A stretch of 34,298 nucleotides of DNA. Source: Prolixibacteraceae bacterium. GTDB lineage: Bacteria > Bacteroidota > Bacteroidia > Bacteroidales > Prolixibacteraceae. A model generated the notes under the pieces. The model was given only the letters and a program-made list of their open reading frames with translations, had not been told where the DNA came from and made no database searches. The stretch covers positions 1 through 34,298 of the forward strand of contig CANJNY010000041.1 of assembly GCA_947475715.1 (NCBI GenBank). The letters are read 5' to 3'. The translations under genes were made by a program, and so were the position numbers. Positions 10,661-34,298 of this stretch are shown in pieces (position 1 is the first letter of the stretch; each line of letters opens with the position of its first letter).

Positions 10661-11413
10661 CTACTCGTCCTCCAAGGCAAGCTCCAGTTCATCGGTCATC
10701 TCAAGATTATGATAAACATTTTGCACATCTTCGTTATCCTCCAATTCTTCAATCATTCGGAGGATAATTTTGGATTCAGATACAGACAGTCTTTTATCTA
10801 CACGAGGAACTCTTTGTAATTCAGCTTTTTGTGGCTCAATTTTCAATTCTTCCAGTTTTTTATTAAATTTTCCAAAGTCTTCAAAAGCAGTCGTTACTGT
10901 GATTATATCCTCTTCTGTATCAATATCTTCAGCCCCGGCTTCGATAAATTCAAGTTCTAAATCATCAAGATTTATATTCTCCTTAATTAAGATGGAAAAT
11001 ACCCCCTTTCGATCAAAAATAAAATTCAACGACCCTTTGGAGGTAAGGGCTCCTCCCCTTTTTGTTATGATATGGCGAATGTCGGCCACCGTTCGGTTAT
11101 TATTATCACTCAAGCATTCCACATATACAGCTACCCTGCCAATGCCATAAGCTTCAAGAAAAATCTCTGAAAGATCTCCACCATCCTTCTCACCTTTACT
11201 TATTGCCCGGTCAATATTATCTTTAGGCATATTCTGCCCTTTGGCATTCAAAACTGCAATTCGCAATCTGGCATTCATCGAAGGATCACTAATACCACCC
11301 TCTTTAACTGCAACAGTTATCTCTTTGGCTAACCTGGAAAAAATATTTGAACGCCTGGCATCCAAAGCACCTTTCTTCCGTTTAATCTTTGACCACTTAC
11401 TATGTCCTGACAT
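10661..11413 (-). CDS. yebC: YebC/PmpR-family protein (TACO1 family)
   Basis: A 250-residue member of the widely conserved YebC family, begun by MSGHSKWSKIKRKKGALDARR, the usual family start. The N-terminal three-helix part is followed by the two alpha/beta domains, with GxGGxL-like MPKDNIDRAISKG and an acidic C-terminus. The family has been described as DNA-binding transcriptional regulators and, more recently, as translation factors that relieve ribosome pausing at proline-rich stretches. The RNA/ribosome role is the safer general reading. It has its own likely -7 box just upstream and is 120 bases from the next gene, so it is probably transcribed alone. Confidence 0.95.
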   Translation of the reverse strand: MSGHSKWSKIKRKKGALDARRSNIFSRLAKEITVAVKEGGISDPSMNARLRIAVLNAKGQNMPKDNIDRAISKGEKDGGDLSEIFLEAYGIGRVAVYVECLSDNNNRTVADIRHIITKRGGALTSKGSLNFIFDRKGVFSILIKENINLDDLELEFIEAGAEDIDTEEDIITVTTAFEDFGKFNKKLEELKIEPQKAELQRVPRVDKRLSVSESKIILRMIEELEDNEDVQNVYHNLEMTDELELALEDE

Positions 11414-15612: not shown

Positions 15613-15620
15613 TAGATTAT

Positions 15621-17948: not shown

Positions 17949-17957
17949 GATATCATT

Positions 17958-19403
17958 ATGAGAGAATTCTTAGAACATGGATTAAACCAAAACAGGCGGA
18001 AATTTTTATCGAAAATGAGCCTTGGAATAGGAGGACTGGCATTAGGTTCACTGATGGTGCCCGGAATATTTGACGGAAAGAACGAAGATGATCTTTTTAC
18101 CAATGTACTGCCTCATTTTGCACCAAAAGCAAAACGTGTGATTTATCTGTTCCAAAATGGAGCCCCTTCACAACTTGACTTGTTTGACTACAAACCAATG
18201 CTGCAAAAGATGCATGGCGAAGATCTTCCTGCAAGCATTCGTATGGGACAAAGGCTTACCGGAATGACCGCTAATCAGGCTAAATTTCCACTGGCAGGAA
18301 CAAAATTTAATTTCTCACAACATGGCAGAAGTGGTGCATGGTTTAGCGAAACACTCCCCCATTTAGCCAGTATGAGTGATGAAATGTGTTTTGTCCGATC
18401 AATTTATACCGAAGCCATTAATCACGATCCCGCACTGACATTCTTCCAGACCGGAGCACAGGTTGGAAACAGACCCAGTATGGGATCCTGGATCAGTTAT
18501 GGTTTGGGAAGTGAGAACAAGAATCTTCCGGCCTTTTGTGTCCTTTTAAGTAAAGGCAAAGGAAATGGTCAGGGAGTCTACTCCAAATTATGGAATAATG
18601 GCTTTTTAGATTCAATCCATCAGGGAGTTCAGTTTAGTTCTGGTGAAGAACCCGTTAAATATCTCACGGATCCTGCTTTTATTAATCGTCCGGATAAAAG
18701 AGCTATGCTGGATGAGATCTCCGCACTTAACGATGCAGCCTATAAAAATATTGGAGACCCGGAAATTGTGACCAAGATTCAACAATATGAATTGGCCTAC
18801 CGCATGCAAATGGCTGTCCCTGAACTCACTTCTCTTCAAAACGAGCCGGAATCAATTATTAAAATGTACGGTCCTGAATGTTTAATTCCCGGAACCTATG
18901 CTGCCAACTGTCTTTTAGCTAGAAAGTTATCTGAAAACGGTGTTCGTTTTGTACAGTTATACCACCAGGGTTGGGACACACACGGTAATCTTCCCAAAGA
19001 GATTGAGGGGCAATGTAAGGATATAGATCAATCATCGGCAGCATTAATAAAAGACTTAAAACAACGGGGTCTACTCGATGAAACACTGGTGATCTGGGGT
19101 GGTGAATTTGGGCGAACAAATTATTGCCAGGGTGCATTAACGAAGGATAATTATGGTCGGGATCATCATCCTCGCTGCTTTACAATCTGGATGGCCGGTG
19201 GCGGTGTAAAACCAGGAGTATTTGGAGAAACTGACGATTTTGGATACAATATTACCAACTTACCGGTACATGTCCATGATTTTCATGCTACAGTAATGCA
19301 TTTAATGGGTATTGACCATGAGAAATTCACCTTTAAACATCAAGGGAGAAGATACCGACTGACAGATGTGGCCGGTAATGTTGTCCATGATCTAATTAGT
19401 TAA
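17958..19403 (+). CDS. Tat-exported DUF1501 protein (alkaline-phosphatase/sulfatase-like fold)
   Basis: A 481-residue DUF1501 protein. The twin-arginine signal is QNRRKFLSKMSLGIGGLALG (R13-R14 plus a hydrophobic stretch). Conserved DUF1501 blocks include QNGAPSQLDLFDYKP, TEAINHDPALTFFQTG, NRPSMGSWISYGLGS, QGWDTHGNL and GGEFGRT; the Asp/His residues in them are likely metal ligands. The family belongs to the alkaline-phosphatase-like superfamily, but no activity has been assigned as far as I know. DUF1501 genes nearly always accompany DUF1549/DUF1553 genes, and here the start lies 9 bases after the DUF1553 stop and its own stop 2 bases before the next gene. A complex at the outer face of the inner membrane is inference. 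Confidence 0.9.
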   Translation: MREFLEHGLNQNRRKFLSKMSLGIGGLALGSLMVPGIFDGKNEDDLFTNVLPHFAPKAKRVIYLFQNGAPSQLDLFDYKPMLQKMHGEDLPASIRMGQRLTGMTANQAKFPLAGTKFNFSQHGRSGAWFSETLPHLASMSDEMCFVRSIYTEAINHDPALTFFQTGAQVGNRPSMGSWISYGLGSENKNLPAFCVLLSKGKGNGQGVYSKLWNNGFLDSIHQGVQFSSGEEPVKYLTDPAFINRPDKRAMLDEISALNDAAYKNIGDPEIVTKIQQYELAYRMQMAVPELTSLQNEPESIIKMYGPECLIPGTYAANCLLARKLSENGVRFVQLYHQGWDTHGNLPKEIEGQCKDIDQSSAALIKDLKQRGLLDETLVIWGGEFGRTNYCQGALTKDNYGRDHHPRCFTIWMAGGGVKPGVFGETDDFGYNITNLPVHVHDFHATVMHLMGIDHEKFTFKHQGRRYRLTDVAGNVVHDLIS

Positions 19404-19405
19404 CT

Positions 19406-21544
19406 ATGAGTGAGAAGAAAATATACCAGATCCTGGAAATGAGCCTGTGGGTTTTAAACCCTTTGCTAATCTTAATAGCATTTTACAATCAGGAAATTCA
19501 ACCCGGGCTCTTTATGCAATGGATTGGGAAATTTCATCCTTTAGTCTTGCACTTCCCCATCGTATTTGGAATGTTAATCTCCATCTATCTGCTGTTTTTT
19601 CAACATCGCAGATTTTCTTTGGATACGGAGAAATTTCTATTGGCAATAAACGCATTGTTTGCAGCAGGGGTTGCAATTTGCGGAATATTACTATCAAAAC
19701 AAAATGCCTATGACGGGGATCTTATTAACTTGCATAAATGGGGTGGAATTGCTATTGCTCTCATTAGCTGGGTTTTGATTTATTGCCAGAACTTAAAAAT
19801 CAAGTCTAAAAAATATCTCGCAGCGGGATTTCTACTAATCATAATTGGATCCGCTCATAAGGGAGCCCAACTGACTCATGGAGTAAATGCACTTAGTTTT
19901 CCTGAACCTGCAGCATCCAAAACAGAAAATAAAAACAGTGCGGAAACTCAGCTGACGCTATATGAATCAACAATTTCCCCTATTCTGGCATCAAAGTGTA
20001 TAAGTTGTCATGGCTTAGATAAAATAAAAGGGGGACTTCAACTTAATTCTCCTGAAAATATCATCAAAGGGGGTAAAGATGGTAACATCCTAAAAGGCGA
20101 TGCCAATAAGACTGCAATGTTTATTGAAAGAATCCATGCGCCACTTAACGATGAAAAGCATATGCCTCCTGATGGGAAGACACAACTCACCTCAGAGGAA
20201 ATAGCCATTTTAAGTAGTTGGATTAAAGCAGGAAGCAGTTTTACAGTTAAAGTAAACGAACTTCAAAAAGAGGACAGCCTCTATCTGTTGACGAATAAAT
20301 CGCAGCCTGCTGTTAAGCCAAATTTCGTTCCAAAAAGCAATCTTCCTGATTTAAAAGAGTTTAACTCTAATTACTGCACAACCAATTATCTTTTTAACGG
20401 ATCGGATGAGGTGGAGGTGAATTTCTTTCAAGGAGCTTTTTATGATCATGAAAACCTGAAGAAATTGGGAAAAATAAAGGATGGAATAGTTAATTTGAAT
20501 ATGCAGGGGATGCCATTAAAAAAGGAGGACCTCGATTTAATTGTTCAATTTAAAAACATCCAAAAATTAAATTTAAACGGGACGAAACTTGAAATAGCCT
20601 CCCTTGAAGTCCTAAAATCGCTGCCAAATCTTAAATCACTTTCAATCTGCGGAATAGAATTCGACGAGGCTGCCTTAGACAAGTTTTTAGATCATGCAAA
20701 GTTTACAGAATTAAATGTCTGGACTCAAAATGGAACTGAAAAGCAACTTGAAAAACTGATGTCGAAATATCCTGCCATCCGTATTGTTGTTGGAGATAAC
20801 CTGGAAGATCAGGTTTTGCAAATCAGTAATCCCACGATTGAACAGGATTCGTTGATTATTCCCAATCACGTCGATATAAAACTAAAACACCTGTTAAAAG
20901 GGGTAGTTATAAGATATACAACAGACGGCACTGAACCTGACAGTATTAAAAGTCCGGAATACAAAGAGAATTTTAGGCTGACTCAAAATACGGTCTTGAA
21001 AATTAAGGCTTATCGGACCGGGTGGAAAAGTAGTGATATTGTTCAACGAACCTACTATAAATCTGAAATTCATCCTGATTCTATCTATTTACTTACTCAA
21101 CCAGATCCCAAACACCGGGGTAATGGATCCAAAACTCTAATCGACTATGATTTAGGAGAGAATAACAGATATACCGATAAATGGTTGGGATATCAGAATT
21201 CAAATATGGATCTGGTTATTGGATTTAATCAGACAAAACCGTTAAATTCGGTATATTTTAATGCTTATATTGAAACAGGAGGTGAGATCTTTCCAATTGA
21301 ATCAATTACAGCGCACGGAAGTGACGACGGAAAGACCTATAAAAAGATTGCAGAGACCAAATTTCCTGCAGCCAAGAAGGATGACCCAAACGGGGCTAAA
21401 ACTTTCACGTGTAATTTCCCGAAAGGAACCGCCTATAAGTTTTATAAATTCAGTGTTTCCAACGTTAAAAAGATGCCGGTATGGCGAAAGGATCGAAAAG
21501 GAAAACCAGCCTGGATATTTGTAGATGAGTTATTCCTGAATTAA
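19406..21544 (+). CDS. Membrane DUF2231-like/PSCyt1 cytochrome with leucine-rich-like, chitobiase-like and discoidin-like domains
   Basis: A 712-residue multidomain protein that ends the operon. Residues about 10-160 hold four or five membrane helices with a DUF2231-like KFHPLVLHFP (42-51), whose histidines could bind haem. A PSCyt1 segment follows with CISCH (198-202) and HMPPDGK (252-258), M253 being a candidate sixth ligand. Residues about 345-465 resemble leucine-rich repeats (IVNLNMQGMPLKKEDL, IQKLNLNGTKLE, LKSLSICGIEF). Residues about 484-550 look like a chitobiase/hexosaminidase C-terminal beta-sandwich (VIRYTTDGTEPD). The end (about 570-712) looks like a discoidin/F5-8C carbohydrate-binding domain. 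This suggests an inner-membrane electron acceptor with an extracytoplasmic binding arm. Function is unproven. Confidence 0.82.
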   Translation: MSEKKIYQILEMSLWVLNPLLILIAFYNQEIQPGLFMQWIGKFHPLVLHFPIVFGMLISIYLLFFQHRRFSLDTEKFLLAINALFAAGVAICGILLSKQNAYDGDLINLHKWGGIAIALISWVLIYCQNLKIKSKKYLAAGFLLIIIGSAHKGAQLTHGVNALSFPEPAASKTENKNSAETQLTLYESTISPILASKCISCHGLDKIKGGLQLNSPENIIKGGKDGNILKGDANKTAMFIERIHAPLNDEKHMPPDGKTQLTSEEIAILSSWIKAGSSFTVKVNELQKEDSLYLLTNKSQPAVKPNFVPKSNLPDLKEFNSNYCTTNYLFNGSDEVEVNFFQGAFYDHENLKKLGKIKDGIVNLNMQGMPLKKEDLDLIVQFKNIQKLNLNGTKLEIASLEVLKSLPNLKSLSICGIEFDEAALDKFLDHAKFTELNVWTQNGTEKQLEKLMSKYPAIRIVVGDNLEDQVLQISNPTIEQDSLIIPNHVDIKLKHLLKGVVIRYTTDGTEPDSIKSPEYKENFRLTQNTVLKIKAYRTGWKSSDIVQRTYYKSEIHPDSIYLLTQPDPKHRGNGSKTLIDYDLGENNRYTDKWLGYQNSNMDLVIGFNQTKPLNSVYFNAYIETGGEIFPIESITAHGSDDGKTYKKIAETKFPAAKKDDPNGAKTFTCNFPKGTAYKFYKFSVSNVKKMPVWRKDRKGKPAWIFVDELFLN

Positions 21545-21605: not shown

Positions 21606-23633
21606 TTATGAGAGAAGCGCTTTAACCTGATTGTAAATATTCTCGGCAGTAAATCCAAGTTGCTGATCAAGAACATCATAGGGAGCAGAAAAACCAAACG
21701 AGCTCAACCCCCAGATAGCGCCGGAATCTCCAACAAGCCCTCGCAAGGTAACCGGAAGACCAGCTGTAAGTCCAAATTTAGGTACATTTACCGGCAAAAC
21801 ACTCTCCTGATAACTCTTCTCCTGCTCACGAAAAAGTCCTTCAGATGGGGCAGAAACAATACGAACGCCTAAGCCATCGCGTTCACGTAATAAGAGAGCT
21901 CCCTCTACCAACGATGCCACCTCAGAACCAGAAGCGACAAGAATTACTGCGGGATTTTCACACTCTTCAACAGTGTATGCCCCTTTTGCTGCCTGCTTTG
22001 CCTCTTCGTAACGATTGGTTTTAGCTGGAAGATCTTTTATATTCTGTCTTGAAAGAATCAAAGCTGTTGGAGTCGATGTATTCTCCATTGCCAGTTGCCA
22101 GGCTACGGTAGTCTCCTGAGCATCAGCAGGACGCAAAACGAGTGTGGAATTTTCACCGTGATGATTCTTCAGATGTTCCATTAAACGCAGCTGAGCCTCA
22201 TGCTCCACCGGTTGGTGAGTTGGTCCATCCTCCCCTACTCTAAAGGCGTCATGTGTCCAGATATATTTAACAGGCAATTCCATCAAAGCTGCCATACGCA
22301 GTGCCGGTTTCATGTAATCGGAGAAAACGAAGAAGGTCCCACACGCGGCAATAATTCCGCCATGAAGTGCAATACCGTTCATTATTGAAGCCATAGTTAA
22401 TTCACAAACACCCGCCTGTAGAAAGGCACCCGAAAAATCACCGTTTTTAAAAGCCCTGGAATTATTTAAAAATCCATCGGTCTTATCTGAATTGGATAAG
22501 TCTGCAGATGAAACGATCATATTTCCAATCTCTTTTGCGAAGGCTCCCAGGACTGTCGCAGAAGCATTACGTGTTGCAGCACCCGCTTTTTGAATAATTT
22601 TTGAATAATCAAAATCAGGAACCTCCCCGGAGAGAAATTTATCCAGTTTGGCAGCGAGTTCAGGATTGGCAGCTGCCCATGCATCCTCTTCATCATTCTT
22701 TGTATTGGCCCACGATTTTAATGTTTCGATACGCTTAGCATAAAGGTCAGCTACATCAGGGAAAATAACAAAGGGATTCTCAGGATCACCACCCAAATTG
22801 GCAATAGTCTTTTTGAATGAGGCACCTGCATGGGATAAAGGCTGTCCATGTGTTGAACATTGCCGTTCAAAATTGGAACCATCTTCCCTGATTGCACCCT
22901 TGCCCATAATTGTTTTACCAATTATAAGGGTCGGTCTTGAATTTTCATTGATGGCAGCTAGAATTGCGTTACGTATAGCATCACCATCATTACCAGCAAT
23001 GGTAAGTACATTCCACCCCCATGCTTTATACTTCATCTCAGTATCTTCCGAGGTAACAGCATCAGTTCCGCTTGAGAGCTGAATATCATTTGAATCATAA
23101 AACATGATCAGATTATTCAATCCCAAAAAGCCCGCCAGACGCCCAGCACCCTGAGAGATCTCCTCCTGAATTCCACCATCTGAAATAAAAGTATACGTTT
23201 TATGGGCCATCCATTCACCAAAACGGGCGACAAGAAATCTCTCTGCTATTGCTGCACCTACAGCCATGGTATGACCCTGACCAAGAGGGCCTGAAGTATT
23301 TTCGACTCCCCGCTCCGGATCCACTTCCGGATGTCCCGGAGTAGCTGATCCCCACTGACGGAAATTTTTCAAATCATCCAGTGAATAGTTACCTCCAAGT
23401 GCCAGAACAGAATAGAGCATGGGGGACATATGCCCCGGATCAAGGAAAAAACGGTCACGGAAGGGCCATGTCATCTCACTTGGATCATAATTTAAAAACT
23501 CAGTGAACAGGATGTTCACAAAATCGGCTCCGCCCATCGCACCTCCGGGATGGCCGGAATTAGCTTTCTCGACCATGGCTGCAGAAAGAATCCGAATATT
23601 ATCTGCTGCTCTGTTTGTTACTGAATCACTCAT
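21606..23633 (-). CDS. tkt: Transketolase
   Basis: A full-length 675-residue transketolase, the thiamine-diphosphate enzyme that moves two-carbon units among sugar phosphates in the pentose phosphate pathway. The N-terminal SGHPGGAMGGADF (H28) and the GDG-like SDGGIQEEISQGAG near 150 bind thiamine diphosphate and metal. The Pyr domain begins near 350 with ATRNASATVLGA, and THDAFRVGEDGPTHQPVE is the hallmark catalytic loop. The C-terminal domain begins near LVASGSEV. It is one polypeptide, not the split form found in some anaerobes. It follows serA by 52 bases in the same direction and is probably cotranscribed with it. Confidence 0.97.
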   Translation of the reverse strand: MSDSVTNRAADNIRILSAAMVEKANSGHPGGAMGGADFVNILFTEFLNYDPSEMTWPFRDRFFLDPGHMSPMLYSVLALGGNYSLDDLKNFRQWGSATPGHPEVDPERGVENTSGPLGQGHTMAVGAAIAERFLVARFGEWMAHKTYTFISDGGIQEEISQGAGRLAGFLGLNNLIMFYDSNDIQLSSGTDAVTSEDTEMKYKAWGWNVLTIAGNDGDAIRNAILAAINENSRPTLIIGKTIMGKGAIREDGSNFERQCSTHGQPLSHAGASFKKTIANLGGDPENPFVIFPDVADLYAKRIETLKSWANTKNDEEDAWAAANPELAAKLDKFLSGEVPDFDYSKIIQKAGAATRNASATVLGAFAKEIGNMIVSSADLSNSDKTDGFLNNSRAFKNGDFSGAFLQAGVCELTMASIMNGIALHGGIIAACGTFFVFSDYMKPALRMAALMELPVKYIWTHDAFRVGEDGPTHQPVEHEAQLRLMEHLKNHHGENSTLVLRPADAQETTVAWQLAMENTSTPTALILSRQNIKDLPAKTNRYEEAKQAAKGAYTVEECENPAVILVASGSEVASLVEGALLLRERDGLGVRIVSAPSEGLFREQEKSYQESVLPVNVPKFGLTAGLPVTLRGLVGDSGAIWGLSSFGFSAPYDVLDQQLGFTAENIYNQVKALLS

Positions 23634-23685
23634 CGCAATTTTATTCTATTATTACTTATTAAATCGTTATCAAGCTACACAAAAA

Positions 23686-24861
23686 TTATTTTCCCTCCAG
23701 GCTTCTAACCATAAATACCCCCTCAATTGATTTAATTTTAGACACAACGTCCTCCGAAAGGGAAACTTCACTGGTGTCAATGATATTATATGCGATATCT
23801 CCTTTATTCTTATTAAGCATATTATCAATATTGATTCCGGCCTGAGCCAGAATGGTAGTAATCTGACTTATGATATTGGGGATATTTTTATTCGTTACCA
23901 AAAGGCGTGCACCACCATTGCGTTCAAGTTCTGCAGCAGGAAAATTAACAGAATTCCGGATATTTCCATTCTCGAAGAAATTACGGATCTGTTCTGCTGC
24001 CATGATAGCGCAATTAACTTCCGATTCATTGGTCGAGGCACCAAGATGTGGAATTGCCACTACTCCTTCTGCGTTAACAAGCAACGCGTTAGGAAAATCG
24101 GTAAAATATGCTCCAACCTTTCCGGATTGAATTCCGGAAATAACGTCCGCATCAACAACCAATTCCCCGCGCGCAAAATTCAGAATTTTAACACCATTTT
24201 TCATCAGCTTTATTTTATCCGCATTGACAAATCCTGTGGTTTCAGCCATTAATGGGATTTGTAAAGTAATAAAATCAGCCTTGGCTAACATGGGTTCAAT
24301 TCCAAAGGCACGAACTACATCATGATGCAGATTCCAGGCATGGTCAATAGAGATATACGGATCATAACCAATAACATTCATCCCTAGCGACTGTGCGGCA
24401 TTAGCCACAAGTACCCCAATGGCACCAAGTCCTACAACGGCCAGAGTCTTACCTTTAATTTCACTGCCGCCGAAATTGGCCTTCCCTTTTTCAACAAGTG
24501 CAGGAACTTTATCTCCTTCGTTGACAAGCGTTTTAGCCCATTGTACACCACCGATTAAATCACGCGAGGCTAACAAAAGAGCTGCAATTACCAACTCTTT
24601 TACCCCATTGGCATTGGCTCCTGGAGTATTAAAAACTACAATACCCTTTTCGGTACATTTGGCTATAGGGATATTGTTAACTCCCGCCCCTGCTCTTGCA
24701 ATAGCTCTGACAGAGGATGGTATTTCCATATCATGCATACTAAAACTACGCAGAACAATCGCATCTGGGTCTGACAATTCACTGGCAATTTCGTAACTGG
24801 TAGCTGGAAAAACCTGAAGGCCTTCCGGATCGATCTTGTTAAGTGTTTGAATCTTATACAT
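23686..24861 (-). CDS. serA: D-3-phosphoglycerate dehydrogenase with ACT domain
   Basis: A 391-residue enzyme for the first step of serine synthesis: 3-phosphoglycerate to 3-phosphohydroxypyruvate with NAD. The NAD-binding motif GLGAIG is at 144-149, the catalytic arginine is likely R231 in NFARGE, and the catalytic histidine is H272 in PHLGAST. A C-terminal ACT domain (about 320-390, LVTNKNIPNIISQITTIL) is usually the site of feedback control by serine. The N-terminal substrate domain is short, as in the compact ACT-type SerA proteins of Bacteroidota. serC, which often adjoins serA in this phylum, is absent. tkt follows on the same strand. Confidence 0.93.
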   Translation of the reverse strand: MYKIQTLNKIDPEGLQVFPATSYEIASELSDPDAIVLRSFSMHDMEIPSSVRAIARAGAGVNNIPIAKCTEKGIVVFNTPGANANGVKELVIAALLLASRDLIGGVQWAKTLVNEGDKVPALVEKGKANFGGSEIKGKTLAVVGLGAIGVLVANAAQSLGMNVIGYDPYISIDHAWNLHHDVVRAFGIEPMLAKADFITLQIPLMAETTGFVNADKIKLMKNGVKILNFARGELVVDADVISGIQSGKVGAYFTDFPNALLVNAEGVVAIPHLGASTNESEVNCAIMAAEQIRNFFENGNIRNSVNFPAAELERNGGARLLVTNKNIPNIISQITTILAQAGINIDNMLNKNKGDIAYNIIDTSEVSLSEDVVSKIKSIEGVFMVRSLEGK

Positions 24862-25016
24862 ATAAAATTGATTATGAGTTCCATTGTTAATAAGACAAAT
24901 ATCATAAAAAAGAAGCAGTTTTCCTTTATTTAACAGATTAAATTTAGATTATTTTATTGTTTAATGAGAATAATCGAAATAATTATGTTTTTAAGACTTT
25001 TTATTGCAATTATCAG

Positions 25017-25024
25017 TAATTTTG
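25017..25024 (+). promoter_or_regulatory. Candidate -7 box for pta
   Basis: TAATTTTG is an exact TAnnTTTG match 44 bases before the chosen pta start codon. No clear TTG/TTTG box is at the expected distance upstream. Confidence 0.4.
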
Positions 25025-25068
25025 TATAACTTTTAATAAATAAGTTCAAAAGTTTGAATATCTGGAAA

Positions 25069-26061
25069 ATGGATTTACTTGAACAAATCAGAAAGCGGGC
25101 ACAAATGCTTCAAATGAGAATCGTCCTGGCAGAAGGAACAGAATTACGAACCCTACTTGCTACCGAGATTTGTATTCATGAAAATCTGGCCAAAATAATT
25201 TTGCTGGGTAATTTTCAGTCCATTCATGAAATTGCAGTAAGGGAAGGAATAAATATTCAAGGGGCAGAAATTATTGATCCACGAACAAGTTCAAAACGGG
25301 AGCAATATGCCCAAATTATGGTTGAAATCCGCAGAAATAAAGGATTAACCATTGAAGATGCGCTAGAATCACTCAATGATCCTCTGGTATTTGGCCCATT
25401 AATGATAAAAGCAGGGGATGCCGATGGAGAAATAGCCGGAGCCATAAACGCGACAGGGGATGTTTTACGCCCGGCTCTTCAATATGTAAAAACTCTTCCG
25501 GGTGTGACGGTTGTTTCCGGTGTATTCTTTATGCTGTTTAAAGATAAGTCGATTGGGGAAAATGGAATTCTGGTTTTTGCAGATTGTGCTGTCATGCCCG
25601 ATCCGGACGAGAGACAACTGGCAGAAATCGCTGTAACGACAGCTAAAACAGCACGTTCGATAGCTAATATTGAACCTCGCATCGCGATGTTATCCTTTTC
25701 GACCAAAGGAAGTGCCCAACATCCACTTGTAAATAAAGTTATTAATGCCACCAGAATTGCCAGAGAATTAGCTCCGGAATTGATGATTGATGGAGAGATG
25801 CAGCTTGACGCAGCTCTAAATATGGAGATTGGCCAATTAAAAGCACCTGGGAGTTCTGTTGCCGGAAAAGCCAATATACTGGTATTTCCTGGGCTTGAAT
25901 CAGCTAATATAGGTTATAAATTAGTTCAACGGCTTGCCGGTGCCCAAGCCATAGGGCCTATTTTGCAGGGAATGGCGGCGCCTATTAACGATCTCTCCCG
26001 GGGTTGTTCTGTCAGCGATATTGTGAATATGGTTGCTATAACTGCAACTCAGGCAGAATGA
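25069..26061 (+). CDS. pta: Phosphate acetyltransferase (PTA_PTB family)
   Basis: A 330-residue compact phosphotransacetylase that interconverts acetyl-CoA and acetyl phosphate. Family blocks include RIVLAEGTELRTL near the N-terminus, GDADGEIAGAINATGDVLRP, CAVMPDPDERQLAEIA, LSFSTKGSAQHP and DGEMQLDAALN. It lacks the long N-terminal regulatory DRTGG domain seen in enterobacterial Pta. I chose ATG 25069; a TTG five codons upstream is less likely. With ackA downstream it forms the ATP-yielding acetate branch. Phosphate butyryltransferases belong to the same family, so acyl specificity is inferred from the acetate kinase partner and general resemblance. Confidence 0.9.
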   Translation: MDLLEQIRKRAQMLQMRIVLAEGTELRTLLATEICIHENLAKIILLGNFQSIHEIAVREGINIQGAEIIDPRTSSKREQYAQIMVEIRRNKGLTIEDALESLNDPLVFGPLMIKAGDADGEIAGAINATGDVLRPALQYVKTLPGVTVVSGVFFMLFKDKSIGENGILVFADCAVMPDPDERQLAEIAVTTAKTARSIANIEPRIAMLSFSTKGSAQHPLVNKVINATRIARELAPELMIDGEMQLDAALNMEIGQLKAPGSSVAGKANILVFPGLESANIGYKLVQRLAGAQAIGPILQGMAAPINDLSRGCSVSDIVNMVAITATQAE

Positions 26062-26215
26062 GTGGAAAAGAAATAAAAGGAGAGTGAGTGTCACAGTGAG
26101 GAAGTCGAAGAGCAGGTGAATAGGAATTACATTCGACGATTTTAACAATTAAAAACTTGAATTTTAAACTAAATAATATTACCTTACATAGTAATAATTT
26201 AGTACGCTATTACGA

Positions 26216-26223
26216 TAATTTTG
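26216..26223 (+). promoter_or_regulatory. Candidate -7 box for the 3-hydroxyacyl-CoA dehydrogenase-like gene
   Basis: TAATTTTG matches TAnnTTTG exactly, 25 bases before the start codon. The upstream box is not recognisable. If real, the dehydrogenase and ackA can be transcribed separately from pta. Confidence 0.35.
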
Positions 26224-26247
26224 ATTTTCACATAAGAATTTTCAGAG

Positions 26248-27225
26248 ATGGAAGAGCTAATCATTGAACCCATTGAAGATTTTGGGTTAAGTAAGAAAGA
26301 GCAACAGCGGACCCTTTTCTCAAAAATCGGGATCGTGGGATGCGGTAAAGATGGGCAAAATATTGCCCGTATAGCCAGTGCAAATGGAATCGAAGTGGTC
26401 TTTATCGAACTTTCGGAAGATAGAATACAAAATGCGTATACAACGCTTGGAAACGTTCTGGACCGCCGGATAGAAAACTGGGGAATGACGCAAGGGGAGA
26501 AAAAACTAATCCTATCCAGAATTAAGGGGAGTCTGGATTATAAAGCGCTTAAAGATTGTGACTTTGTCATTGAGGCTATCCGTGCAGAATCCAGCGAAAG
26601 GAAGATTACAGAACGCATGGAGGTTTTCAAAAAAGTTGAACAGGTGGTCTCTCCGGAGTGCATTATTGCCACAAATTCCACTACAATTATCATCACCGAA
26701 TTATCCTCTGAATTGAAATATCGTGACCGATGTGTCAGTTTGCATTTCTTTGTCCAATCACCTGAAGCAAGAGTATGCGAAGTTGTTAAAGGATTATATA
26801 CCACCGAAGAGGTGTACAACAAAGTTTTGAAATTTGTGAAGATGGTAAATCGGCAGGCCATTCCGGTGGAAGAATCTGCCGGGCTAATATCAATCCGACT
26901 CTATACTGCGCTGTTAAATGAGGCGTGTGAGGTGCTACTTGAGGGGGTTGGAGCCATGGTTGATATTGATACAGTCTGGAAGGTTGGATTTGGGATGCGT
27001 TTTGGCCCCTTTGAACTGGCTGATATTTTGGGAATTGACAAGATTAACCGTTGGATGGAGAATCTCTACTCAGAGTTTGGTGACCCGCGCTACATGGCAT
27101 CACCTGTAATTAAAAAATTGGTGCGGGCAAAGCGATTTGGTGTCCACACCTGCTGTGGATTTTACAGTTACGATTGCAATGACAAGATAGTTGGACAGGG
27201 GCCAATAGCAACTGAACGGGAATAA
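26248..27225 (+). CDS. Divergent 3-hydroxyacyl-CoA dehydrogenase-family protein
   Basis: A 325-residue protein with the 3-hydroxyacyl-CoA (3-hydroxybutyryl-CoA) dehydrogenase layout: an N-terminal NAD-binding domain with GCGKDG (31-36) and a C-terminal helical domain with FGPFELADILGIDK (252-265). The catalytic pair H166 (SLHFF) and E178 is kept at the usual spacing of 12. Two usual signatures have changed: HFFNPxP reads HFFVQSP, and the conserved Asn of G(F/L)(I/V)xNR(L) is I216 in GLISIRL. The fold is clear but substrate and even activity are uncertain. It lies between pta and ackA on the same strand, which suggests a link with acyl-CoA or acyl phosphate metabolism. Confidence 0.8.
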   Translation: MEELIIEPIEDFGLSKKEQQRTLFSKIGIVGCGKDGQNIARIASANGIEVVFIELSEDRIQNAYTTLGNVLDRRIENWGMTQGEKKLILSRIKGSLDYKALKDCDFVIEAIRAESSERKITERMEVFKKVEQVVSPECIIATNSTTIIITELSSELKYRDRCVSLHFFVQSPEARVCEVVKGLYTTEEVYNKVLKFVKMVNRQAIPVEESAGLISIRLYTALLNEACEVLLEGVGAMVDIDTVWKVGFGMRFGPFELADILGIDKINRWMENLYSEFGDPRYMASPVIKKLVRAKRFGVHTCCGFYSYDCNDKIVGQGPIATERE

Positions 27226-27292
27226 TTGAGAATCAGAAAATACCGGGTCAGAGCACTTGCAAAAGGCGACAAACCCCTAATAAAACATATTT

Positions 27293-28498
27293 ATGAAAAT
27301 TTTAGTCTTAAACTGCGGAAGTTCGTCGATTAAATACCAGTTTTATACCCTTCAGGGCAATCGTATTCTGGGAAAAGGGATCGTTGAGAAAATTGGAATG
27401 AAGGGATCTGTTCTGAGACACCAAAAAGAATCGGGACAGAAGGTGCTTTTCGAGGGTGAGATTCTGGATCATAAAATTGGAGTCGAATATATTCTCGGAG
27501 TTATATCCAGTGCCAAACATGGTTCTATTAGCTCTTTAAATGAAATTGATGCTGTTGGACACCGGGTGGTTCATGGAGGAGAAGAATTCAGTGAAAGTGT
27601 ATTAATTACAGACGAAGTAATAGTGACACTCGAAAAATTCATTGAACTTGCTCCGTTGCATAATCCTCCAAACTTAAAAGGTATTTATGCACTCAGAGAA
27701 TTAGTTCCGGATATTCCGCAGGTTGCTGTATTTGACACAGCATTTCACCATACAATTCCACAACATGCCTTTATGTATGCCATACCCTATGCGCTTTATA
27801 AAAAGTATGGAATCCGAAGGTATGGTTTTCATGGAACCAGTCACAAGTATGTTTCAAATCGGGCATGCGAATTATTAGGGGTTGATCCCGCCAAAACAAA
27901 AGTTATCACCTGTCATCTTGGGAATGGTGCCTCAGCGTGTGCCATAAAAAATGGTAAATCTATAGATACCTCGATGGGGTTTACTCCGGTTGAAGGGCTA
28001 ATAATGGGAACGCGTTCCGGTGATATTGATATGGGAGCAGTAGCATATATTATGGATAAAGAGAAAATCGGAACAAAATCGGCCTCTACCCTATTTAACA
28101 AGCACAGTGGATTATTAGGAATTACAGGAATATCATCAGATTCTCGTGAGATTCGTGCGGCTGCAGAAAAAGGAGATGAACGTTGTCTGCTAGCCATTAA
28201 AATGTTCGATTATCGGATTAAAAAATATATAGGAAGTTATGCCGCAGCGATGGGCGGATTAGATGTTCTTGTTTTTACCGGAGGAATTGGTGAAAACTCA
28301 GATCTCACACGAAGTGGTGTTTGCGAAGAACTCGAATTCATGGGTATAGAAATCGACCCGAAAATTAACAAGGGGCTAAAAGGTGAAGAGTGTGTTATCA
28401 GCACAAAAGATTCACGGGTAAAGGTGATTGTAGTACCTACAAACGAAGAGTTAATGATTGCCATTGATACACAGAAGATTATATATGGCAAGGATTAA
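27293..28498 (+). CDS. ackA: Acetate kinase
   Basis: A 401-residue acetate kinase that makes ATP and acetate from acetyl phosphate. ASKHA-fold motifs are intact: LNCGSSSIKYQ at the N-terminus, GHRVVHGG, VFDTAFHHTIP, RRYGFHGTSHKYV, CHLGNGAS and the C-terminal FTGGIGENS. Length is standard. It follows the dehydrogenase-like gene by 67 bases. Its stop codon is one base from the stop of the converging MBL-fold gene, so no separate terminator fits between them. Confidence 0.97.
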   Translation: MKILVLNCGSSSIKYQFYTLQGNRILGKGIVEKIGMKGSVLRHQKESGQKVLFEGEILDHKIGVEYILGVISSAKHGSISSLNEIDAVGHRVVHGGEEFSESVLITDEVIVTLEKFIELAPLHNPPNLKGIYALRELVPDIPQVAVFDTAFHHTIPQHAFMYAIPYALYKKYGIRRYGFHGTSHKYVSNRACELLGVDPAKTKVITCHLGNGASACAIKNGKSIDTSMGFTPVEGLIMGTRSGDIDMGAVAYIMDKEKIGTKSASTLFNKHSGLLGITGISSDSREIRAAAEKGDERCLLAIKMFDYRIKKYIGSYAAAMGGLDVLVFTGGIGENSDLTRSGVCEELEFMGIEIDPKINKGLKGEECVISTKDSRVKVIVVPTNEELMIAIDTQKIIYGKD

Positions 28499-28499
28499 T

Positions 28500-29261
28500 T
28501 CAGAGTTCAAGAACCAACCCGTCGTAACCAGGTTCGATATAAGAAGGTAATTCGTTAAGCAGGTCACCATGTTTCCCCATTTCATGACTCATATGGGTAA
28601 GATACGATTTTTTTGGGGCAATTTTCTCAATCAACGCAATAGCACCTTCAAGATTAAGGTGTGATATATGTGGTGTTTTGCGTAAGGCACAAATCACCAG
28701 TTGTTCTACCCCATATAGTTTTTCCAGTTCAACATCCTCAATTAAATTAAAATCGGTTACGTAGGCAAACCGCCCAAAACGAAAACCGTAAACCGGCAAT
28801 TTATAATGGTAAAGACGGATCGGAATTATCGGAATCGGACCAATTTTAAAAGCCTTACTATCAAGGTCTATCAAATCCATCTGAGGAATTCCCGGATATT
28901 TATTGGCTGAAAAAACGTAATTAAATATAGACCGGAGATTTTTTTGAACACGCTCCTCACAATAGATATCCATTGGTGATTTTCGCAACCAGTTAAAACT
29001 GCGGATATCATCCAGACCAAAAATGTGATCTGCATGCTCATGAGTAAGCAGAATTGCATCCAGATTATCCACCTCGTGTCGTAACATCTGTTGGCGGAAA
29101 TCAGGACCCACGTCAACAACGATTCTGGCTGACCCTTCCTCCACCATAATAGCACTTCTAAGCCGCTTATCTTTTGAATCGACAGACTTACAAACCTCAC
29201 ATTTACAGGCGATAACCGGAACACCCTGGGAGGTTCCGGTTCCCAAAAGGGTTACTCTCAT
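28500..29261 (-). CDS. MBL-fold metallohydrolase, PhnP-like
   Basis: A 253-residue metallo-beta-lactamase-fold hydrolase. The dinuclear metal motif is LLTHEHADHIFGLDD with H74, H76, D78 and H79; further ligands are likely H-containing segments such as THMSHE near the C-terminus. The N-terminus has GTGTSQGVPVI and a CKCEVC cluster (C19, C21, C24) like the structural zinc site of PhnP. PhnP cleaves ribose 1,2-cyclic phosphate in phosphonate use, but no phosphonate genes are present, so a general phosphodiesterase role is safer. It is a common single gene in Bacteroidota. Confidence 0.88.
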   Translation of the reverse strand: MRVTLLGTGTSQGVPVIACKCEVCKSVDSKDKRLRSAIMVEEGSARIVVDVGPDFRQQMLRHEVDNLDAILLTHEHADHIFGLDDIRSFNWLRKSPMDIYCEERVQKNLRSIFNYVFSANKYPGIPQMDLIDLDSKAFKIGPIPIIPIRLYHYKLPVYGFRFGRFAYVTDFNLIEDVELEKLYGVEQLVICALRKTPHISHLNLEGAIALIEKIAPKKSYLTHMSHEMGKHGDLLNELPSYIEPGYDGLVLEL

Positions 29262-29635
29262 TATTTTAAATTCGTTACAAATTAGAACACAAATAAAATA
29301 AATTATTCAGTAAGAGCACATACATTGAAAAGATCAGGATACTAAAATGCCCTTCAATGACGCATTACATGAAATGTTCCTTTTTAACTGTTCGATAATT
29401 CTTAACAAAAATAGAATATTTTCCTTCATCCAAAAGGGTTTTGATATTATTCAAATGGTTAAAGAATATAGGTGTCAAATACACGAAATAAGAGTGAAAA
29501 TGATTATTTTTATAAGGTTGATTGCGAAATGATTATTCCTGGGTAGTTGTGGTAATATTTTAAGATGCGAAAACCATTTAACACTTATTCCCTATTATTC
29601 CTCCTCTATTGAAGTCTTAATTTGATTCTGGTATC
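29262..29635. other. Intergenic region upstream of hpdB, 374 bases
   Basis: This is the divergent gap between the MBL-fold gene and hpdB. It holds one weak promoter candidate for hpdB (29522-29551) and an 11-base direct repeat AAATGATTATT at 29498-29508 and 29527-29537 that overlaps the promoter region. A 61-codon frame at 29347-29532 has no recognisable features, and I do not call it a gene. No regulator gene is visible. Confidence 0.5.
29522..29551 (+). promoter_or_regulatory. Weak candidate promoter for the hpdBCA operon
   Basis: TTG (29522-29524), a 19-base spacer and TAGTTGTG (29544-29551) match the Bacteroidota pattern with one mismatch in the -7 box. The leader would be about 78 bases. 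A second AAATGATTATT copy lies inside the spacer, where a regulator could act. Confidence 0.3.
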
Positions 29636-32329
29636 ATGAAAAATAAACATGTAAATTTTGACGCAATGACTGACAATTTTAATTATTATGGAACCAGTCC
29701 GCATGAAGGAATCCTGAACAGAGATGAGAAGAAAGTCCTCCCTACACCTCGTGCTGAAAAGGCCCGAAAAAACTACCTTGATACCAAGTCATCTGTTTCT
29801 GTGGAGTTCCCTTATTGGTACACCCGCCGGTGGGATGAATTAGAAGGTGAGATACCCATTATCCGAAGAGCGGAAGCCTTAAAGACAGGATTCACACATT
29901 TGACACCTTCCATTTTTCCGGGTGAATTATTGGCCATGCGGAAATCGAACTATACCAGAGGCTCATATCCAATGCCTTGGCTTTCAGAGTCGTTCTTTCT
30001 TTCAAAGGAAGAGGAGCTATATAAGGAAGCGCAGAAATCCGGAAAAGCAAGTGCCGATGATGCCACAACTATGGGCCTGGGTGGAGGTAATGTTACCGAA
30101 AGTATTGGAAATGTACTATCGATTGCCGGAAAATTTGGTTTACGCAAGGAGGAGATGACCATCCTTATTAAAACGGCAAAAAAATGGCAAAACAGATCTG
30201 TCGAGGATTTAGGTCATAAATATGAGCAGCTTGTTCCTGGCTACGATACAAAAGAGGAGATCATGCGGGCTGTTATTTGTATGTTTGATTCGGGGTATAC
30301 ACTTCCGCAAGGACGCGAGGTAATCAACTATTACTACCCGCTTCAATATGGAATTGAAGGAATAAAAAAAATATGTGCCGATAATCGAGGTATAACAGCT
30401 GGATATCCGGAAATGAATCGGTTATATTTTTATACCGCAGTCCATACGATGCTTGAAGGAATTCAAATCTGGATCATGAATTATTCGAGGGAAGCCCGTC
30501 TGATGGCTTCACTGGAGAATGAAAAACAACAGAAAACCGAATATCTTGAAATGGCAGATCGTCTGGAGCGACTTTCGTCAAACAGACCTGAAACTTTTCA
30601 TGATGCACTTCAATTAATCTGGATTTTTCATGTTGCAGTCTTAAACGAGGATGCTATTTCTGGCTTATCCCCCGGCAGGCTCGGACAGGTTCTTTATCCA
30701 TTCTGGAAAAACGATATGGATAAGGGTATCCTAAACAGGCAAAAGACCATCGAACTGTTGGAATGTATGCGGGTTAAATTCACCGAAATTGATTGTTTTG
30801 CCGCTATGGGTGTTGTCGGTGGCGTTTTAAGTGGAAATACATTTAACAATTTATGCATCGGCGGGCTTGATAAAGAAGGGAATAGTGCAGCCAATGAACT
30901 CGAAATGCTAATCCTGGAATCGGCCATGTCGTGCGACACCCCACAGCCAACATTAAGCCTGCTTTTTGACGAAAAATTGCCGGAAGAGTTCTTGCTAAAA
31001 GGGGTTGAATGTACTAAAATTGGAACAGGATATCCTGCCTGGATCAACAACCGCGTGGCCATGGAATTTCTGCTCAATAATTTCAGAAATGAAGGAATGC
31101 AATCCGAAGAAGCCAGAGCCTGGGCTATTGGAGGCTGTCTAGAGACCTCAGCCGGAAGCTGGATGCCTTTGGAGCTTAATGGTGAAACACACTTCATCCC
31201 GGGAGGATCTGCGCCTGCAACAAGTGTCGGAGTTCATTTTATTTCACTCCCCAAGGTTCTGGAGGCGGTTCTGTTTGACGGATTGGATCAGAGAACCGGG
31301 CGGAGGGTTTATCCGGCGCATGGATTGGAATTGGACTCCTATGAAAAAATATGGACTCAGTTTAAACATTATTTTAGCCTTTCGGTTGAAGTACTCAACT
31401 TAACCAATAATATCCAGCACGATATCTGGGGAAAAGTCTCACCCTCCATAATCAACAGCATGCTAAAACCGGATTGTCTTGATACCGGCAAAGACATCAG
31501 CCATAAGGGGAGCCGATATAACAGAACCTTCAACGTCGAAATCTGTGGAGGGGTGAATCTTGTCAACTCTCTGGCTTCAATCAAAAAAAATATCTTTGAT
31601 GAGAAATACTTTTCATTATCTGAATTAAAATTTGCCATAGAATCAAATTTCGGATATCGTCCTGCGATGGAAACCGGCTCATATAGTTTAACAGACCAGG
31701 TCAGGGGAGCCGATTTTGTAACCTGGCTGAAAATTCACAAGCTTTGTCTGGAGGCTCCCAAATTCGGAAATGATGACAAATATGCGGACCATATTTTCAG
31801 AGAGTGGCAAATTTGGTTCAGTAAAATGTGTGAAAATTATCGGTCTCTATATGACCAGCCACTTTATTCATGCCAGATATCGGTATCAACCCATGCCCCT
31901 ATGGGAGCCGTTACGTTGGCTACCGCTGATGGAAGGTTATGTGGCACCACCTTTGCGGATGGTTCTGTTTCTGCCTATCCGGGTTCCGACAAGCAAGGTC
32001 CATACGCACTATTTAACTCAGCAACCTGCTATAATCACGCGTTGTCCCAGAATTCGCAACTTAACATGAAAATTCATCCCTCAGTAGTGATGGGACGGGA
32101 AGGATCACGAAAATTCCTTGAACTGATAAAAGCCTATCTTCGAAAGGGAGCCTTCCATTGTCAGTTTAATATTGTTGATTCCCGGATGCTAAAGGATGCT
32201 CAGAAAAATCCTTCACAATACAGAGGATTGATGGTCAGAGTCGCCGGATTTACACAGTATTGGGTAGAACTGGGAAAACAAATCCAGGATGAAGTAATTG
32301 CACGGACAGAATATGAACAATTAAGTTAA
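29636..32329 (+). CDS. hpdB: 4-hydroxyphenylacetate decarboxylase, glycyl radical large subunit
   Basis: An 897-residue glycyl radical enzyme that I recognise as the catalytic subunit of 4-hydroxyphenylacetate decarboxylase, which forms p-cresol and CO2 in tyrosine fermentation. The thiyl cysteine is C501 in GGCLET with E503 beside it, and the radical glycine is G871 in RVAGFTQYW. Residues that bind the substrate in the clostridial enzyme appear here with a constant offset of two: S342, H534 and E635 (Clostridioides S344, H536, E637, from memory). Long stretches such as MFDSGYTLPQGREVINY and CQISVSTH also match what I recall. E635 and H534, which hold the phenol hydroxyl, favour this substrate over phenylacetate or indoleacetate. 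The enzyme is cytoplasmic and oxygen-sensitive. hpdC starts 10 bases after its stop. Confidence 0.93.
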   Translation: MKNKHVNFDAMTDNFNYYGTSPHEGILNRDEKKVLPTPRAEKARKNYLDTKSSVSVEFPYWYTRRWDELEGEIPIIRRAEALKTGFTHLTPSIFPGELLAMRKSNYTRGSYPMPWLSESFFLSKEEELYKEAQKSGKASADDATTMGLGGGNVTESIGNVLSIAGKFGLRKEEMTILIKTAKKWQNRSVEDLGHKYEQLVPGYDTKEEIMRAVICMFDSGYTLPQGREVINYYYPLQYGIEGIKKICADNRGITAGYPEMNRLYFYTAVHTMLEGIQIWIMNYSREARLMASLENEKQQKTEYLEMADRLERLSSNRPETFHDALQLIWIFHVAVLNEDAISGLSPGRLGQVLYPFWKNDMDKGILNRQKTIELLECMRVKFTEIDCFAAMGVVGGVLSGNTFNNLCIGGLDKEGNSAANELEMLILESAMSCDTPQPTLSLLFDEKLPEEFLLKGVECTKIGTGYPAWINNRVAMEFLLNNFRNEGMQSEEARAWAIGGCLETSAGSWMPLELNGETHFIPGGSAPATSVGVHFISLPKVLEAVLFDGLDQRTGRRVYPAHGLELDSYEKIWTQFKHYFSLSVEVLNLTNNIQHDIWGKVSPSIINSMLKPDCLDTGKDISHKGSRYNRTFNVEICGGVNLVNSLASIKKNIFDEKYFSLSELKFAIESNFGYRPAMETGSYSLTDQVRGADFVTWLKIHKLCLEAPKFGNDDKYADHIFREWQIWFSKMCENYRSLYDQPLYSCQISVSTHAPMGAVTLATADGRLCGTTFADGSVSAYPGSDKQGPYALFNSATCYNHALSQNSQLNMKIHPSVVMGREGSRKFLELIKAYLRKGAFHCQFNIVDSRMLKDAQKNPSQYRGLMVRVAGFTQYWVELGKQIQDEVIARTEYEQLS

Positions 32330-32339
32330 CGAAAACCAT

Positions 32340-32576
32340 ATGAGGCACTACGATTGTCAATATTACCTGAATACAGATGTCTTTAAAGGTATATGTAAGA
32401 GAGACAAAAGTTTAATAAATGCCGATGATACGGCATGTGAGAAATTCATGAACGCCATCAAATGTAAATACTGTTTAAATTTTGCGCTCACTTCTGAGGA
32501 GCTTGGATTATGTATGAATAAATTTGATGCCTATCCTGAGATGAACGCTGTTACATGCAATGATTTTAAACAATAA
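32340..32576 (+). CDS. hpdC: 4-hydroxyphenylacetate decarboxylase, iron-sulfur small subunit
   Basis: A 78-residue protein matching the small subunit found only with this class of glycyl radical enzymes. Seven cysteines and an N-terminal histidine are placed as expected for two [4Fe-4S] clusters: H3, C6, C19 and C33 for the first, C42, C45, C58 and C73 for the second. The histidine ligand is a characteristic feature of the family. The subunit is thought to stabilise the complex and regulate the radical state. It overlaps the start of hpdA by 17 bases, so translation of the two is probably coupled. Its presence separates this system from the phenylacetate and indoleacetate decarboxylases, which lack such a subunit as far as I know. 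Confidence 0.92.
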   Translation: MRHYDCQYYLNTDVFKGICKRDKSLINADDTACEKFMNAIKCKYCLNFALTSEELGLCMNKFDAYPEMNAVTCNDFKQ

Positions 32577-33504
32577 CAGCAGCGATACAAAAGGATATAT
32601 TTTTGATATCCAAGGGTATTCGGTTCATGATGGTCCCGGATGCAGAACATTAATTTTCTTGTGCGGATGTACATTAAACTGTTTTTGGTGTTCAAATCCC
32701 GAGGGAATAAACTCCAGACCTTCACTCATGTACAACGGTCATAAATGCATAAGCTGCGGGCGTTGTGTTGAAAGTTGTCCGCACAACGCGCTTAGTCTTG
32801 ATGATCATAAAATAAAAATATCAAACGACATGTGTCATTTGTGCCATGCTACCATTTGCACAAACAACTGTTATACAAATGCATTACGGTTAATCGGACA
32901 TGAAATATCCATTGAAAGGGTTTACGAAACTATCACGCGCGATCGCCAATTCTGGGGTTCTGAAGGTGGTATAACCCTGACAGGCGGAGAACCATTATTG
33001 CAATCTAATTTTACACATGCCCTTCTCAGAAGATGTCATGAGGGCTATATTCACACAGCCATTGAAACTTGCGGAAACGTACCCTGGACAAATTTCCGCA
33101 AAATTATTCCATATACCGATTGGATCTTTTACGACCTGAAGCACATGGATAGTAACTTGCACAAGAAGGGTACAAACTCGGGAAACTCAATAATTTTAAA
33201 GAATGCCTTACGACTCTCCCGCGTATTTAAAGGGCGTCTGATATTTCGGCTTCCACTGATCCCCTCTTATAACGATTCTGCAGAAAATTTGAACCTGGTA
33301 ATCTCGTTTCTAAAGGATATTGGAAAAAATGAGATTAACATACTTCCCTTACACCATTGGGGAAGAGAAAAATATCAGATGCTGCAAAGGGAATATCCGG
33401 GAAGTTCATTCCCTCTACCAACCCCTGAAAAACTGAAAGAAATACGAGAATTATTCAGTAATTCTGGTGTCAATTGTTTTATAGGCAGTGAAACGCCCTT
33501 TTAA
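32560..33504 (+). CDS. hpdA: 4-hydroxyphenylacetate decarboxylase activating enzyme (radical SAM)
   Basis: A 314-residue glycyl-radical-activating enzyme that uses S-adenosylmethionine to make the glycyl radical on HpdB. The radical SAM cluster is C37, C41 and C44 (CTLNCFWC), preceded by YSVHDGPGCRT, the family start. A ferredoxin-like insert carries two further [4Fe-4S] sites: C63, C66, C69, C73 and C92, C95, C100, C104. TGGEP (141-145) binds SAM. The double-cluster insert is typical of activases outside the plain pyruvate formate-lyase type. The start ATG lies inside the end of hpdC, and the gene order B-C-A is the same as in Clostridioides difficile. Confidence 0.93.
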   Translation: MILNNNSSDTKGYIFDIQGYSVHDGPGCRTLIFLCGCTLNCFWCSNPEGINSRPSLMYNGHKCISCGRCVESCPHNALSLDDHKIKISNDMCHLCHATICTNNCYTNALRLIGHEISIERVYETITRDRQFWGSEGGITLTGGEPLLQSNFTHALLRRCHEGYIHTAIETCGNVPWTNFRKIIPYTDWIFYDLKHMDSNLHKKGTNSGNSIILKNALRLSRVFKGRLIFRLPLIPSYNDSAENLNLVISFLKDIGKNEINILPLHHWGREKYQMLQREYPGSSFPLPTPEKLKEIRELFSNSGVNCFIGSETPF

Positions 33505-33574
33505 AATGATTTTTTAATAGCTGAAAATTTTGCAGCGAAAATTTCAATCCAAAGATATCCCGTTCATAAATCCT

Positions 33575-33582
33575 TACCTTTG
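33575..33582 (+). promoter_or_regulatory. Candidate -7 box for the RsmI-like gene
   Basis: TACCTTTG matches TAnnTTTG exactly and lies 15 bases before the ATG, implying a very short leader. The upstream TTG box is not visible. Confidence 0.4.
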
Positions 33583-33596
33583 GCAAAATTTAAAAA

Positions 33597-34298
33597 ATGG
33601 GAAATCTATACCTTATACCAACAACGCTGGGTGAATCAGGAACATCACATGTAATACCAACCGACGTTTCTGCTATTGTTAAGAATATCAAATATTTCAT
33701 TGTTGAGAATATAAGGACAGCCAGGCGCTATTTACGAAAATTAGATCCACAGATTAACATTGACGATTTACACTTCTCTGAACTAAACCAACACACTGAC
33801 AGTCAAATAATCGATGGATATTTAAATCCCATTTCAGCGGGCTTTGATGTTGGAATAATATCGGAAGCCGGATGTCCGGGTGTAGCTGATCCAGGTGCCG
33901 AAGTTGTAAAATATGCACATATCCGTCAAATCCGGGTGATCCCTTTGGTCGGACCATCATCAATATTACTCTCACTGATGGGTTCCGGCATGAATGGGCA
34001 GAACTTTGCATTTATCGGCTATATTCCGGTAAAACATGAGGAAAGAACTAAAGCCATCAAAGATATTGAGCGAAAATCAGCAATGGAAAATCAGACGCAG
34101 ATATTTATTGAAGCTCCTTACCGTAACTCACCCCTGATAAATGATTTAATTAAAACCTTGGGGGATCACACCCGACTCTGTGTGGCATGCGACCTTACTT
34201 TGGAAACTGAATTTATAAAAACGAAAACCATAATTCAGTGGAGAAAGGAAATTCCAGATCTCAATAAACGGCCCGCTATTTTTCTTGTGCAAGCAAGC
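33597..34298 (+). CDS. RsmI-like SAM-dependent methyltransferase (tetrapyrrole methylase family), 3' end cut by window
   Basis: An open frame of 234 codons runs from ATG 33597 to the window edge without a stop. It begins MGNLYLIPTTLGE, followed by FIVENIRTARRYLRKL, ISEAGCPGVADPGAE, PLVGPSSILLSLMGSGMNGQNF, IFIEAPYRN and RLCVACDLTLETEFIKTKT. These are the blocks of the RsmI / tetrapyrrole-methylase fold, where the GCPGVADPGAE loop is the hallmark of the RsmI group that 2'-O-methylates C1402 of 16S rRNA. The shortened form lacks room for the usual RsmI C-terminal extension and resembles a second, about 235-residue, RsmI-like protein found in Bacteroidota, so only a few residues are probably missing. 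Its exact target is uncertain. Confidence 0.85.
   Translation, partial: MGNLYLIPTTLGESGTSHVIPTDVSAIVKNIKYFIVENIRTARRYLRKLDPQINIDDLHFSELNQHTDSQIIDGYLNPISAGFDVGIISEAGCPGVADPGAEVVKYAHIRQIRVIPLVGPSSILLSLMGSGMNGQNFAFIGYIPVKHEERTKAIKDIERKSAMENQTQIFIEAPYRNSPLINDLIKTLGDHTRLCVACDLTLETEFIKTKTIIQWRKEIPDLNKRPAIFLVQAS

Follow-up and report, generated by a model that had tools for sequence, protein, structure and literature searches.

The window analysed here, the whole 34,298-nucleotide contig CANJNY010000041.1 of a Prolixibacteraceae bacterium (order Bacteroidales, phylum Bacteroidota; GenBank assembly GCA_947475715.1), carries a complete hpdBCA operon that, judged from its sequence, very probably encodes a working 4-hydroxyphenylacetate decarboxylase (HPAD) forming p-cresol, a malodorous compound with antimicrobial action whose best-known producers are clostridia. 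The kind of enzyme and its presence in the phylum are already known, and the interest of the operon lies in its distribution and mobility. The three genes and the codons of the two radical sites are located as follows:

29636..32329, + strand: hpdB, glycyl radical large subunit of HPAD, 897 residues (NF033715; alignment with 2y8n_A)
31136..31144, + strand: codons of the thiyl-radical Cys501, Leu502 and Glu503 of hpdB (aligned with Cys503-Leu504-Glu505 of 2y8n)
32246..32248, + strand: codon of the glycyl radical Gly871 of hpdB (aligned with Gly873 of 2y8n; PF01228 Gly_radical domain)
32340..32576, + strand: hpdC, iron-sulfur small subunit, 78 residues, eight His/Cys ligand positions (NF033716, PF18671, phmmer)
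32560..33504, + strand: hpdA, radical SAM activase with a CX3CX2C motif and two ferredoxin-type clusters, 314 residues (NF033717/TIGR02494, motifs)

The initial annotation had described three intact genes at these coordinates, with 10 bases between hpdB and hpdC and a 17-base overlap of hpdC and hpdA; re-reading of the open reading frames gave the same spacing and overlap, and no internal stop in any of the three. The order B-C-A is also that of the operon of Clostridium scatologenes (PMC4979209; here and below, cited papers stand for excerpts of their text), and 17 of 18 loci examined, that of the window among them, have the whole triad side by side. The exception, L035 (G118:C342, 196–2793), is a solitary hpdB without adjoining hpdC or hpdA, followed on the other strand by a gene that by eye resembles dnaA. 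Its HpdB keeps all the active-site positions of the other relatives, and no hpdC was detected elsewhere in that genome (completeness 79%).

Assignment and active site of the enzyme

HpdB scores 1390.4 bits against NF033715, the equivalog model of HPAD (cut-off 1150, E-value 0), and over 41 genomes the three HPAD matches stand far above other glycyl radical enzymes, with 1390–1414 bits against 336 for the next match. The nearest known systems are the HpdBCA/CsdBCA decarboxylases of Clostridioides difficile and C. scatologenes (PDB 2y8n and 2yaj). HpdB is 51.2% identical to the large subunit of the C. scatologenes enzyme over 853 aligned positions, and the systems of the window and of C. scatologenes have the same subunits, the same catalytic and para-hydroxyl-binding residues and the same ligand positions in the small subunit. 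In the alignment with residues 38–896 of 2y8n chain A, 10 of 11 checked positions are identical (2y8n numbering: Arg223, Ser344, Gly345, Leu400, Phe405, Cys503, Glu505, His536, Glu637 and Gly873). They include all the catalytic residues that the initial annotation had listed as intact, namely Ser342, Cys501, Glu503, His534, Glu635 and Gly871 of the window, which correspond to Ser344, Cys503, Glu505, His536, Glu637 and Gly873 of 2y8n; Leu398 corresponds to Leu400. That Gly873 carries the radical is deduced from the enzyme family. Nine of the 11 positions are given as active-site residues in PMC4979209; Leu400, and Glu637 in its role as a mark separating HPAD from indoleacetate decarboxylase (IAD), are taken from PMC6181972. 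Of five of the active-site residues of PMC4979209 (Arg223, Ser344, Gly345, Phe405 and Gly532) four are identical; Gly532, the eleventh position checked, is replaced by Ser530. A structure model of HpdB built from an eight-row alignment had a mean pLDDT of 36, too poor for use, and was set aside.

HpdC reaches 70.3 bits against NF033716, the model of the HPAD small subunit (cut-off 50, E 1.4e-19), contains the PF18671 domain and matches 2y8n_B by phmmer with an E-value of 6.4e-9. Its residues His3, Cys6, Cys19, Cys33, Cys42, Cys45, Cys58 and Cys73, which we take to be the cluster ligands, align with His and Cys residues of 2y8n chain B. HpdA scores 320 bits against TIGR02494, above the cut-off of 174, and both its CX3CX2C motif and its two ferredoxin-type cysteine sets are intact. 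In 5 of 16 aligned HpdA sequences (L008, L040, L042, L043 and L044) the second cysteine of the first ferredoxin-type cluster is an aspartate.

Proposed reaction and substrate supply

By its residues, the enzyme of the window would follow the chemistry of the characterised one (PMC4979209, PMC6181972). HpdA, a radical SAM protein, would abstract a hydrogen from Gly871 of HpdB and the radical would move from there to Cys501; Cys501, together with Glu503, would then withdraw an electron from the 4-hydroxyphenylacetate carboxylate while Glu635 accepts the phenolic proton, upon which CO2 would leave and p-cresol be released. HpdC is expected to bind two iron-sulfur clusters and to be required for the holoenzyme.

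The substrate might derive from tyrosine through an aminotransferase, IorAB and an ADP-forming acyl-CoA synthetase, or might be taken up as 4-hydroxyphenylacetate. The genome of the window encodes an IorA-like protein beside an IorB that passes its curated model (contig C55), as well as an ADP-forming acyl-CoA synthetase (contig C4) that is 60% identical to that of the related locus L004; for the step from the acyl-CoA, kinase and ADP-forming ligase routes have both been described (PMC13285125). In L004 the gene for the ADP-forming acyl-CoA synthetase (3590–5650) lies directly upstream of hpdB, and in L044 a class I/II aminotransferase gene (12456–13778), similar in L043, lies downstream of hpdA; both are candidates for the conversion of tyrosine to 4-hydroxyphenylacetate. 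The pathway cluster HpdDEFG/JK reported for C. scatologenes (PMC13285125) was not seen beside the operon of the window. The upstream genes for Pta, a hydroxyacyl-CoA dehydrogenase and AckA were considered as a substrate-supply set comparable to HpdJK and dropped; they are not counted in the system because their DNA also matches in the 11 relatives compared whose corresponding site lacks the operon (the match being incomplete where the compared stretch runs out). The dehydrogenase gene (26248–27222, 3-hydroxyacyl-CoA dehydrogenase-like) lies between pta and ackA, and its DNA matches in relatives of the genus.

Several observations weigh against a working HPAD fed from tyrosine. The position of Gly532 is occupied by serine in all 18 copies compared (the window and 17 relatives) and by glycine in none, so that the pocket differs from the C. 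scatologenes site. The best model for HpdA is NF033717, the HPAD activase, but its 341 bits fall short of the cut-off of 420. The HpdA sequences of relatives behave alike, all seven tested (of the 16 at hand besides that of the window) remaining below this cut-off with 277–351 bits, and for that of L040 NF033717 is not the best model; to us this suggests that the cut-off was tuned to other lineages, not that a part is missing. As to supply, the IorA-like match of the genome, at 510 bits, is under its cut-off of 651 and ends about 50 positions before the end of the profile, and IOR in Bacteroides has been argued to run perhaps in the biosynthetic direction (PMC13285125), which makes the tyrosine route uncertain.

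The serine, together with an identity to the characterised enzyme of only 51–54%, would also fit an HPAD-family enzyme whose main natural substrate is another para-hydroxylated arylacetate, such as 3,4-dihydroxyphenylacetate giving 4-methylcatechol, the Gly-to-Ser change tuning the pocket. Clostridial HPAD also accepts dihydroxyphenylacetate. We nevertheless regard such a preference as improbable, since the two residues binding the para-hydroxyl group (His536 and Glu637), together with Leu400 and Phe405, are unchanged in all 18 copies.

The separation of HPAD from other arylacetate decarboxylases is supported by the profile scores, the residues and the gene content of the predicted system. That the genes encode a different enzyme, for indoleacetate or phenylacetate, merely resembling HPAD is, by comparison with IAD, very hard to maintain: all are glycyl radical decarboxylases and HpdB does match the IAD model with 691 bits, but this is far below the cut-off of 1100 whereas the HPAD cut-off is exceeded by 240 bits, Glu635 and Leu398 stand where IAD has Leu and Ala, and hpdC has no counterpart in the IAD clusters of PMC6181972. 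According to the same source a small subunit accompanies HPAD and none accompanies IAD, which also lacks the para-hydroxyl-binding Glu.

Distribution among related genomes

With the window's own genome counted each time, HPAD occurs in 3 of 18 genomes at the level of the genus (by protein search) and in 4 of 140 at that of the family; samples of the order and the phylum gave 10 of 393 and 1 of 395. These figures agree with the earlier view of the system as rare rather than unheard of in the phylum, and the occurrence in Tannerella mentioned with it is indeed published, PMC6181972 reporting the HPAD of T. forsythia (A0A1D3UC78), a member of the same phylum. The hpdBCA loci of relatives known from metagenomes (L002–L008, G002, G011, G076, G117, G123, G223, G308, G371 and G833) contain the same triad, with HpdB 69–87% identical to that of the window, and mostly have other genomic neighbours. 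Six of the seven named relative loci are labelled Bacteroidales or Bacteroidetes and one (L007) "bacterium"; the loci of the Bacteroidales records L005 and L006 are also present in the same-order genomes G209 and G385, from which we take the sampled order to be Bacteroidales. L041 duplicates the hpdB locus of L006, and L045 that of L005; both were excluded from alignments and trees.

Transcription of HPAD by Proteobacteria and Planctomycetes has been reported (PMC13228077), so that clostridia are not its sole home, and production of p-cresol has also been reported in Olsenella, of the Actinobacteria (PMC6181972). For Bacteroidetes, no route from tyrosine to cresol was predicted when 2,738 complete genomes were surveyed (PMC5682003), and neither hpd operons of Bacteroidales nor their transfer are announced in the open-licence papers found, judged mostly by title and opening of the abstract. 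Complete operons in Bacteroidales assemblies lengthen the list of likely p-cresol producers.

Genomic site of the operon

The operon lies between two genes that do not belong to the system, and the surrounding features are:

28500..29261, - strand: MBL-fold metallohydrolase on the left flank, found next to rsmI throughout the genus (models and synteny)
29277..33567, no strand: stretch that G010 lacks in its MBL/rsmI spacer, limits approximate (blastn)
29606..29635, + strand: possible leader or promoter, 30 bases 5' of hpdB, resembling its counterpart in the genus-mate G002 (blastn)
33597..34298, + strand: RsmI-like 16S rRNA methyltransferase on the right flank, running off the end of the contig (TIGR00096, synteny)

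The RsmI-like flank scores 104.9 bits against TIGR00096, under the cut-off of 167.9, and is syntenic in relatives. The MBL and rsmI genes stand on one contig in 16 of the 18 genomes of the genus, that of the window included, and 14 of the 15 others have a spacer of 81–200 bp between them (11 spacers were read as sequence). In G006 (C384, about 14703–17098), the exception, a partial rsmI match lies about 2 kb away, and as much as 2 kb of other DNA may be present in the spacer. In the nearest relative, G010, blastn matches to the window end at 29276 and restart at 33568. G002 has its hpdB on a separate contig (C64), its own MBL/rsmI spacer measuring 162 bp.

With the operon masked, the flanks of the four copies of the family (stretches of 34.3 kb in the window, 18.3 kb in G002, 6.5 kb in G011 and 9.0 kb in G833) do not match one another in blastn at E 1e-3, whereas G010, taken as positive control, matches the window. 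Proteins encoded within about 7 kb of 17 hpd loci (open reading frames of at least 90 residues) were also compared: L043 and L044 share a flank block, and the other recurring flank families over the 17 loci number three, namely an aminotransferase (L004, L043, L044), a protein with no Pfam hit (L004, L044) and one of roughly 1,030 residues (L038, L040).

No mobile element was recognised, four possible genes of the window (open reading frames of at least 100 residues at 266–778, 2657–3022, 8086–9117 and 10661–11413) and most neighbours elsewhere not having been scanned by family models. No direct repeat of at least 14 bases has one copy at each junction, a length below which target duplications would escape detection. 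None of 28 candidate stretches in viral contigs encodes a relative in a scan with the HpdB alignment, and the 33 plasmid records found at E 1e-60 are all below 60% identity (30 being listed at 24–31%), hence none is HPAD-like.

Phylogeny and history of the operon

The trees of HpdB and of HpdA each group the copies of the window, G002 and G011. The HpdB of G833, which belongs to another genus of the same family, falls within this genus group beside that of G002, to which it is 91.5% identical. Forcing the HpdB copies of the genus together was rejected (p-AU 0.007), as was forcing together the four copies of family f100 (p-AU 3.9e-34); the test groups follow taxonomy codes and the topology tests were run after the tree had been seen. 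The differing sites and the conflict of the tree with taxonomy suggest transfer as a compact block; the simplest interpretation is that the genes were transferred or relocated together. In the window this compact block would have entered the MBL/rsmI spacer after the split from the nearest sampled relative, probably by lateral arrival. We tentatively propose that the hpdBCA genes of Bacteroidales form a stand-alone cassette of about 4 kb, passing between genomes to unrelated sites without a recognised transposon and conferring p-cresol production, in which the lineage-specific Gly-to-Ser change may alter substrate preference. If so, what is handed on would be the ability to make a compound that inhibits competitors. 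The operon is patchily distributed and changes site, which opens the lateral spread of the trait to testing.

An ancestral operon of the family, inherited vertically and lost by most members, with rearrangement accounting for the different places, would change the history only and seems to us somewhat less probable. It would account for the grouping of the copies of the window, G002 and G011, and two changes suffice for presence and absence on the flank-gene tree of the genus, in which only 3 of 15 inner branches are well supported; however, the nesting of G833 inside the genus group, with the rejection of the genus constraint, and the separate positions of the f100 copies argue against it. 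An assembly artefact or contaminant, which 315 contigs, an estimated contamination of 3.2% and the position of the operon near a contig end might suggest, is most unlikely, since the DNA on both sides matches the G010 locus at 79–82% identity and HPAD genes with HpdB 82–87% identical are carried by three further members of the family. The 30 bases 5' of hpdB belong to a blastn match between G002 and the window (74.7% over 95 bases) that extends into hpdB.

Other observations in the window

Counts of promoter-like and terminator-like sequences resemble those in shuffled sequence, and an Rfam scan of positions 23000–34298 at gathering thresholds gave no match. Farther from the operon, positions 15621–21541 hold a run of genes with PSCyt1, PSCyt2, PSD1 and DUF1501 domains, PSCyt1 being named for planctomycetes.

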